A stretch of 37,499 bases of DNA from an uncultured Paenalcaligenes sp. (GTDB lineage: Bacteria > Pseudomonadota > Gammaproteobacteria > Burkholderiales > Burkholderiaceae_B): positions 1 through 37,499 of the forward strand of contig CANQRK010000006.1 in assembly GCA_947626245.1 (NCBI GenBank), given 5' to 3'. Position numbers and translations under genes: made by a program. The notes under the pieces are model-generated. The model did not search any database, was not told the origin of the DNA, and saw only the letters and a program-made list of their open reading frames with translations. Below, piece by piece: positions 764 to 31,020 of this stretch. Position 1 is the stretch's first letter. Each line of letters starts with the position of its first letter.

Positions 764-924
764 TTGTACGAGGGGGCCATGCACCCGATACGCTTGGGCT
801 AGGTAGTGTTGAAGGGGTAAGCGGTTCAGCGCGGAGCGAACGCAGTGAGCGAGCACTGCTTAGCGAACCCCTTCAACACTACCTAGCCCAAAAAGGATTT
901 CGGAGGCAGGGCTACCTCGTACAA
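764..924. repeat. Nested inverted repeat element (outer arms TTGTACGAGG/CCTCGTACAA; inner 24-bp perfect arms)
   Basis: 764-773 TTGTACGAGG is the reverse complement of 915-924. 794-817 TTGGGCTAGGTAGTGTTGAAGGGG is the exact reverse complement of 868-891. The 50-nt centre contains GCAGTG(AGCGAG)CACTGC at 842-859. Confidence 0.9.
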
Positions 925-1940: not shown

Positions 1941-3869
1941 GTGATTCGTGCAACGGATTTAGGTTTACGCCGCGGAACAAAGGTGCTCTTGCACAATGCT
2001 CAGTTTGTCATCAACCCAAAAGAACGTGTGGGTATTGTGGGGCGTAATGGTGCGGGCAAATCCTCATTATTTGCTTTATTCCAACACCTACTGGATGCCG
2101 ATCAAGGCGTGCTAGATATCCCTAGCCGTTGGCGCATCGCCAGTGTAGAGCAAGAAATAAGCGATAGAGATCGTCCCGCGCGCGAGTTTGTTATCGATGG
2201 GGATAGCGCTTTACGTCAACTTCAAGCCGAGCGTGCCGCTACGCCTGACTCCGATGGTAACCGCATCGCTCAACTAGAAAACGCGCTTATCGAAGCCGAT
2301 GCTTGGACGGCTCCTTCACGAGCCGAGCAACTGTTAGCGGGTTTAGGGTTTAAACCCGAGCAGTGGATGCTGCCTGTGGGACAGTTTTCTGGTGGATGGC
2401 AAATGCGTATTGCGCTAGCTCGCGCTTTAATGGCACCCTCCGACCTACTCTTGCTTGACGAGCCCACCAACCACCTCGACTTAGACGCTATGCTGTGGTT
2501 AGAGCGTTGGTTGCAATCCTACCCCGGCACGGTACTGACTATTTCGCACGATACCGAGTTCCTTGATGCTGTTAGCACTCATATTCTGCATTTTGAGCAA
2601 CAACAGCTGTTCAAATACAAAGGCAACTACTCCGACTTTTTAAGTCAACGCGCTGAACGCTTACGCCAAGACCAGTTAGCGTGGGAAAAACAACAACGTG
2701 AAGTGGCCCATCTGCAAAGCTTTATTGATCGCTTTAAGGCCAAAGCCACCAAAGCCAAACAAGCGCAAAGCCGTGTTAAAGCTCTAGCTAAAATGCAAGA
2801 ATTAGCACCGGTACGTTTAGATAGCTCAATTCAATTCAGCCTGCCCACCCCCGAGCATATGCCCGACCCTCTGTTACGATTGGCCGATGCCAATCTAGGG
2901 TACAGCAGCCCCGAATTACGCACTATCTTGCATCAAGTCAAAGTTGATGTACGCAGTGGTAGTCGTATTGGTATTCTGGGCATGAACGGTGCCGGTAAAA
3001 GTACGCTAATCAAAACCTTGGCGGGCGAACTCAACATACTAAGTGGCGAACTCATTCCTTCAGCTAGACTTGCGGTAGGCTATTTTGCTCAGCATCAGCT
3101 TGATATGATCGAGGCCGAACTCAGTCCCATTCAGCATATGCAGCGTCTTGCCCCCGAGGTTCGCGAGCAAGAACTACGCAACTACTTAGGGCGCTTTGCC
3201 TTTAGTGGGGATATGGCTACCGACACAACGGCTGGCTTTTCCGGTGGAGAAAAAGCGCGTTTAGCTTTGGCTTTAATTGTTTGGCACAAACCTAACCTTT
3301 TATTGCTCGACGAGCCCACTAACCACTTAGATGTGGAAACCCGCGAAGCATTGGCTGCCTCATTGGCAGAATACGAAGGCAGTGTGCTAGTCGTCTCGCA
3401 CGATCGACAACTATTGCGCTCGACAGTAGATAATTTTTGGATTGTGGCGGATGGTCAGGTTGCTGAGTTTGATGGCGACCTTGAGGATTACCGCGACTGG
3501 TTACTTTCCCGAGCAGCTCAACACCGCAGTAGCAAACCCATCGAAACAGGAGCTGAGACCTCTTCAGTCGATCGTCGCACGCAACGTCGTCTAGAAGCCG
3601 AAGCGCGCCAAAAAATCGCTGCACTCCGCAAACCTCTGGAAAAACAAATTCAGCAACTCGAAAAAAGCATGGAGCAAAATAAACAACGCCTCCAGCAGCT
3701 AGACGAGCTCATGAGCGATCCAGAGTTTTATGGTGATCAATACAAAGACCAACGCCCCACCCTGCTCACCGAACACGGAGAAATCAGCAAACAACTAGAC
3801 AACGCTGAAGAGCAATGGTTAGCGCTGCAAGAGCAAGTCGAACAAATCGAACAAGATCACAAAGTGTAG
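1941..3869 (+). CDS. ABC-F family ATP-binding protein (YheS/Uup-like)
   Basis: Two Walker A motifs (GRNGAGKSS, GMNGAGKST), two signature motifs (FSGGWQMR, FSGGEKAR), LLLLDEPTNHLD twice, no TM domain. Confidence 0.92.
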   Translation: MIRATDLGLRRGTKVLLHNAQFVINPKERVGIVGRNGAGKSSLFALFQHLLDADQGVLDIPSRWRIASVEQEISDRDRPAREFVIDGDSALRQLQAERAATPDSDGNRIAQLENALIEADAWTAPSRAEQLLAGLGFKPEQWMLPVGQFSGGWQMRIALARALMAPSDLLLLDEPTNHLDLDAMLWLERWLQSYPGTVLTISHDTEFLDAVSTHILHFEQQQLFKYKGNYSDFLSQRAERLRQDQLAWEKQQREVAHLQSFIDRFKAKATKAKQAQSRVKALAKMQELAPVRLDSSIQFSLPTPEHMPDPLLRLADANLGYSSPELRTILHQVKVDVRSGSRIGILGMNGAGKSTLIKTLAGELNILSGELIPSARLAVGYFAQHQLDMIEAELSPIQHMQRLAPEVREQELRNYLGRFAFSGDMATDTTAGFSGGEKARLALALIVWHKPNLLLLDEPTNHLDVETREALAASLAEYEGSVLVVSHDRQLLRSTVDNFWIVADGQVAEFDGDLEDYRDWLLSRAAQHRSSKPIETGAETSSVDRRTQRRLEAEARQKIAALRKPLEKQIQQLEKSMEQNKQRLQQLDELMSDPEFYGDQYKDQRPTLLTEHGEISKQLDNAEEQWLALQEQVEQIEQDHKV

Positions 3870-3985
3870 CAGCAGGCCACGCCTGTGATAAAGCCCGATC
3901 GGGGGCATGGCCCCCTCGTACAACATCACCCCTGTAGGAGCAGGCCACGCCTGCGACCAAACCCGATCAGGGGCATGGCCCTTTT
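3865..3985. repeat. Tandem pair of REP-like palindromic units (period 68 bp)
   Basis: TGTAGCAGCAGGCCACGCCTGTGATAAAGCCCGATCGGGGGCATGGCC at 3865, and TGTAGGAGCAGGCCACGCCTGCGACCAAACCCGATCAGGGGCATGGCC at 3933. Confidence 0.85.
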
Positions 3986-30899: not shown

Positions 30900-30944
30900 C
30901 TACACAAAATAAAGCACGTTTAGAGCGCGTTTTCGATAAAGGCT

Positions 30945-31020
30945 GATCGGGGGCATGGCCCCCTCTCACAATCTGCCTCTACGCCCATGATGTAATGATG
31001 ATTGGGGGGGCATACCCCTC
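30945..31020. repeat. Two copies of the GATCGGGGGCATGGCCCCCTC repeat
   Basis: GATCGGGGGCATGGCCCCCTC at 30945-30965 (identical to 3897-3917) and GATTGGGGGGGCATACCCCTC at 31000-31020, between convergent argF and argG. Confidence 0.75.

Follow-up and report, generated by a model that had tools for sequence, protein, structure and literature searches.

Structured Intergenic Repeats in Bacterial Chromosomes

REPs consist of hairpins with stems of 5-13 bp and a GTAG foot, and they often lie between convergent genes (PMC3733652). TnpA-REP reads one strand of the folded hairpin, recognizing its loop, a bulge or mismatch, and the GTAG foot (PMC8266576). Larger intergenic repeats of 90-170 bp, including ERIC, bcr1, and RU, are cited in studies of other repeat families (PMC3110155; PMC2267715). 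BRE, a betaproteobacterial repeat of Bordetella and Polaromonas, is about 90 bp long, is found on the chromosome in up to 29 copies per genome, and occurs in clusters at a locus (PMC3110155).

The window considered here is the whole stretch of 37,499 nucleotides from an uncultured Paenalcaligenes sp. (GenBank assembly GCA_947626245.1, contig CANQRK010000006.1; the genome is designated G000). Positions 764-924 of the window form a nested hairpin of about 160 bases, with 25-bp perfect arms and REP-like outer ends. The reading preferred here, held with moderate confidence, is that the hairpin belongs to a non-autonomous structured repeat, similar to REPINs and BIMEs, whose copies were distributed in single-stranded form by a trans-acting enzyme and that likely has a side role at the 3' ends of transcripts.

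The Hairpin at the Window Locus

The piece occupies a gap of 236 bp between a metallophosphoesterase gene, which ends at 758, and the gene for the L3 glutamine methyltransferase, which starts at 995; the original prediction was correct in finding no coding content there. It was equally correct about a nested inverted repeat with exact outer 10-bp arms, TTGTACGAGG (764-773) and CCTCGTACAA (915-924). The inner perfect repeat, given as 24 bp, is present but is one pair longer, and the outer parts resemble the interspersed family that was noted near 3897, with a match of 96% (Table 1). Folded as DNA, positions 764-924 reach -58.7 kcal/mol versus -24.0 kcal/mol in dinucleotide shuffles (z -12.8); RNA folding of both strands of the 160-base piece, a check that had been suggested, also gives energies well below those of shuffles (z -11.6 and -9.4). 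The GTAG motif is confined to the plain units at 3865-3981, while the window piece has GTAC at both ends. A further plain REP-like unit without the hairpin core lies at 30942-30971.

Table 1. Features of the window copy, related units in the window, and type C copies in other Paenalcaligenes genomes.
Feature	Position	Strand	Basis
Outer REP-like module, inverted copy (TTGTACGAGGGGGCCATGCACCCGAT), GTAC at 766-769	764-789	-	96% complementary to 3898-3923; genome REP matches
Hairpin stem, left arm, copy-specific sequence	794-818	+	25-bp perfect inverted repeat with 867-891; own-versus-swapped arm test
Conserved 47-nt core, type A (AGCGGTTCAG...CACTGCTTAGCGA)	820-866	+	58-copy ungapped alignment; covariance model match
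Apical block	834-852	+	GA/GA, 2-bp stem, and GNA counts in 58 copies; covariation
Apical tandem G-A/G-A, outer block	834-835 with 851-852	+	
Apical GC/GC	836-837 with 849-850	+	
Apical tandem G-A/G-A, inner block	838-839 with 847-848	+	
Apical AC-GCA-GT: 2-bp stem and GNA triloop	840-846	+	
Hairpin stem, right arm	867-891	+	perfect inverted repeat with 794-818
Outer REP-like module (TTCGGAGGCAGGGCTACCTCGTACAA), GTAC at 919-922	899-924	+	3 mismatches to REP consensus
Two plain REPIN-like units of the outer module without hairpin core; first unit GTAG at one end, GTAC at the other	3865-3981	+	sequence; similarity to the window outer module
Type C copies, G002	L068:7456, L069:4607, L069:11165, L070:2933, L070:9397		
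Type C copy, P. hominis	L076:7490		
Type C copy, G006	L057		

Copies and Distribution

BLASTN of the piece against its own genome finds dozens more places, centered on 820-868. The 47-nt core is evident from an ungapped alignment of 58 copies. A covariance model derived from these copies matches the window at 800-886 (90 bits, E 2.5e-24); it identifies 49 copies in this genome, as well as 20 in Paenalcaligenes hominis (G005), 9 in G006, and 5 in G002. The multi-copy status of the piece, which had only been inferred, is established by these searches, and the copy number rules out a chance hairpin or a single-copy feature. The model finds no copies in the seven other Paenalcaligenes genomes, which leaves the element in 4 of the 11 species, and a search of 258 further genomes from the same bacterial family gives no match. 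A loosened core pattern matches genome contigs only from Paenalcaligenes, and searches of plasmid and viral collections returned no match. The apex pattern gives five single hits in 398 other genomes of the phylum, none of which refolds to a long hairpin with the Paenalcaligenes tip. A scan of Rfam found no family above its gathering threshold; the best match, mir-491 (27 bits versus a threshold of 62), is a chance hairpin match.

None of the interior copies in this genome is inside a called gene. Many contigs end near copies, so the repeat may explain part of the fragmentation of the draft genome.

A Conserved Tip on a Variable Stem

Core plus arms measure some 87-95 nt, and the arms form 20 pairs on average. 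When copies of this genome are compared with each other, the median identity is 0.87 for the core but only 0.42 for the arms. The left and right arms of the same copy pair at a mean of -32.2 kcal/mol, versus -13.9 kcal/mol when arms are swapped between copies.

Across the 58 copies the core extends the stem into a single hairpin, which RNAalifold picked independently; 95.6% of its positions are paired versus 82.1% after shuffling, and covariation is 0.464 versus 0.205. From the base, the order is GC/GC (type A) or AC/GT (type B), CAG/CTG, and GC/GC, followed in the upper part by a tandem G-A/G-A block, a GC/GY step, a second tandem G-A/G-A block, a 2-bp stem, and a triloop. The tandem blocks are intact in 58/58 and 55/58 copies. 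The apical stem is AC/GT in 24 copies, GT/AC in 17, and GC/GC in 12, and the triloop is GNA in 46 of the 58. The apical pairs take three standard forms, but the orientation of the loop does not change, so the constraint on the tip is strand-specific. Tandem GA motifs form sheared G-A pairs, and the blocks of the element presumably have the same geometry.

One core step is G-T in 27/58 copies, a wobble that is tolerated on the given strand; together with blocks that read GA rather than TC, this identifies the given strand as the folded form. These strand marks place the constraint on a single strand, either ssDNA or RNA, and not on a cruciform. The cloverleaf or cruciform core originally proposed is not supported, covariation favoring a different, single-strand-specific hairpin: a three-way core is favored by energy for the window copy, but its covariation across copies (0.127) is that of shuffled alignments (0.121). 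The inner hairpins on which that proposal drew, GTTC/GAAC and GCAGTG/CACTGC, do exist in the letters and in the predicted minimum-energy fold of the window copy, yet the family as a whole does not conserve them.

Two accounts of the paired but variable arms were considered. According to the first, the arms are copied from the target site by insertion of the core into an existing terminator stem; this was rejected because arms are shared within a subtype at different loci (92% between loci L016 and L018) and because the DNA beyond the right arms is rich in A rather than T. The second is based on template switching during replication, which can keep freely varying arms paired (PMC8794818). The element would then be a functionless fossil repeat, its arms held complementary by quasipalindrome correction instead of selection. 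Such a fossil agrees with arms that vary freely and still pair, with nearest-neighbor arm identities of mostly 0.6-0.82 (most copies are well diverged and no recent burst is visible), and with a genome in which no mobilizing enzyme was found. Template switching, however, would erase the tandem G-A mismatches that nearly every copy retains, and it is at odds with apical pairs that switch among three standard types under a loop of constant orientation; this account is considered unlikely. Conservation restricted to the tip of a free but paired stem points to the part that an enzyme or other protein must read.

Modules and Arrangement

The hairpin in this genome is usually flanked by GTAC motifs, near both ends in many copies but not all. 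The REP-like module TCGGAGGCATGGCCTCCTCGTAC begins 29-48 nt past the core in most copies, and in several copies the left GTAC doubles as the end of another REP. This REP has 52 matches in the genome and 0-1 in ten other Paenalcaligenes genomes; the P. hominis copies have no REP-like ends, with neither GTAC nor GTAG. Since the REP ends are confined to the G000 species and the core occurs in four species, the element is a composite of two separable modules, a species-specific REP end and a common hairpin core. The predicted interspersed, non-coding composite with REP-like ends is thus upheld, and the division into modules is more specific than the description as MITE-like. REPIN-like inverted pairs are also found: type A is paired with inverted type B in both G000 and P. 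hominis, and in the latter clusters of 2-4 copies alternate in orientation, type A against type B.

Genomic Context and Transcript Ends

The context figures are indications, since they come from crude ORF calling and a simple scan for terminators, on contigs selected because they hold copies. In this sample 20 of the 34 copies with genes on both sides are in convergent gaps; among copy-free control gaps on the same contigs, each at least 60 bp long, the figure is 20 of 167 (Fisher p 2e-8). Canonical U-tract terminators in convergent gaps are found at 7/38 gene ends with a copy versus 36/58 without (p 2.5e-5).

At the window locus, where this genome has the element, P. hominis and G006 have an ordinary terminator between the same two genes, with a TGATATAAT promoter box after it, and the gap after the same upstream gene also lacks the element in G003 and G009. 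Comparison of the orthologous locus, as had been advised, therefore shows that the presence of the element here is lineage-specific; with 49 copies in one genome and an empty gap in sister species, it is not a single-copy sequence that is invariant among relatives. The sister-species flanks agree at about 68-79% and the gap itself cannot be aligned, a divergence too great to define the insertion point or any duplication.

The scarcity of canonical terminators in gaps with copies raises the possibility, rated as appreciable but well short of probable, that the element is maintained by the host as a bidirectional terminator or 3'-end stabilizer of convergent transcripts, with the tip as an RNA-protein binding site. 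The ordinary terminators at the window locus in two sister species and the tolerance of G-U wobble in the core agree with such a role. A plain transcription terminator is not what the window locus contains, however: there is no T-run after the hairpin, which excludes an intrinsic (Rho-independent) terminator by sequence, and no terminator-like site was found on either strand at 650-1050. Co-directional gaps hold four sense and four antisense copies, showing no orientation preference despite the strand-specific tip, copies are also located in divergent gaps and by Tn7-like ends, and 7 of the 11 species of the genus do without the element.

Enrichment between convergent genes, where supercoils collect, together with inverted A/B pairs like those of BIMEs, would also suit a chromosome element that binds a putative nucleoid or topology protein. 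The constraint is on one folded strand rather than on a duplex binding site, and this possibility is regarded as very improbable.

For the preferred reading, a mobile repeat with a side role, copies would persist where they are least harmful, between convergent genes, and the element probably serves there as the 3' hairpin of both transcripts.

Possible Mobility and Candidate Enzymes

Spread of the element in the past is supported by differences in copy number, by the lack of a copy at the orthologous site, and by clusters like those of BIMEs. The mechanism proposed for it starts from a hairpin some 90 nt long. Its strand-specific tip, with sheared G-A pairs in tandem and a triloop of the GNA type, would be the recognized signal; the arms of 20-26 bp would need only to pair and could otherwise drift freely. 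Copying around the chromosome would most likely involve the folded ssDNA and a transposase-like enzyme supplied in trans, often producing inverted A/B pairs, and in the G000 species the hairpin would have become joined to REP modules ending in GTAC.

No match to PF01797 (Y1/RAYT, IS200-type transposases) was found in the G000 assembly, which is 92% complete. P. hominis has several IS200-like genes; its PF01797 matches number 17, many of them partial. The enzyme is present in G001 and G003, which lack the element; its carriage thus does not track the repeat. Strand bias relative to GC skew, considered as a sign of lagging-strand transposition, was rejected (13/35, not significant). MITE-type terminal inverted repeats are present in the window copy, as the outer 10-bp arms, and no parent transposon sharing the ends of the element was seen. 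Degenerate IS200-like Y1 fragments with the middle missing occur in P. hominis at C3:19982-20189, C1:316864-317071, C1:473977-474184, and C2:64296-64503; one of these lies roughly 300 bp away from a hairpin of type C.

Type C copies, with arms GCAGCGAGCTAACGAGTG, adjoin Tn7-like ends next to glmS (Table 1). Five of them lie within 42 kb in G002, several next to 5'-truncated genes that resemble tnsE; an NCBIfam scan of the G002 gene returned no family. This layout suggests repeated insertion of a Tn7 derivative without tnsABCD, and the G002 copies mark the point at which the Tn7-like element by glmS appears to have lost the transposition genes upstream of the putative truncated tnsE. The same region contains an integron integrase (TIGR02249, E 2e-90; L068:8494-9210) that is apparently short at its N-terminus.

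A Similar Repeat in Another Burkholderiales Genome

An order-wide sample searched with the model gave one weak match, in another Burkholderiales genome (G644). Two copies stand there in inverted orientation; their long arms are unrelated, but the tip is the same, GAGCGA-NN-GNA-NN-GAGCGAG. The genome has about 15 distinct copies (L168, L190-L209), with the Paenalcaligenes tip on different arms. Arms of the same copy pair at -39.7 versus -26.3 when swapped. The tandem-GA block is replaced by CC-GNA-GG in about half of the copies, which independently supports the apical hairpin. One inverted pair adjoins transporter-like genes. The two repeats may reflect shared descent or convergence. A bolder proposal, put forward tentatively and judged rather unlikely, is that they represent a new class of structured repeat, marked by a strand-specific GA/GNA tip on free arms, that arose or spread in at least two Burkholderiales families, would be moved by an ssDNA-processing enzyme, and would act as a portable bidirectional 3'-end signal that replaces terminators.

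Comparison with Known Systems

The ERIC, bcr1, and RU families are generally conserved along their length, whereas only the tip of the element is conserved and its arms vary from copy to copy. These families resemble the element in size and copy number, in forming a long imperfect hairpin, in lying between genes, and in their species-restricted spread.

BRE is arranged as head-to-tail tandems and is described with neither inverted pairing nor a conserved fold (PMC3110155), a description that sets the element apart. IS200/IS605 ends and integron attC sites act as strand-specific folded ssDNA (PMC8266576). The element has neither IS200-type ends nor a reading frame, however, and in contrast to attC, which has conserved boxes at the base of its stem, its conserved block is apical and its basal arms vary.

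The closest likeness is to REPs, REPINs, and BIMEs, which are also multi-copy, extragenic, and palindromic, with inverted pairs of two subtypes; the A/B clusters match the BIME/REPIN layout in a much larger unit, and the outer modules of the window copy look like REPs. Strand-specific recognition of a hairpin with a required irregularity (PMC8266576) and location between convergent genes (PMC3733652) are further points in common. A REP unit, however, is 20-40 nt with a stem of 5-13 bp, and only the outer modules here are of that size; the element has copy-specific arms of 20-26 bp and a conserved 47-nt tip with tandem G-A blocks, with no GTAG foot and no RAYT in G000. Since it departs from REPs in size and GTAG motif and comes without the enzyme, it is not classed as a REP. 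It offers a compact system in which to ask how folded ssDNA elements spread when no transposase is recognizable, and whether repeats of this kind come to replace transcription terminators. Known REP-type elements keep stem and loop together, whereas here the tip alone is kept.
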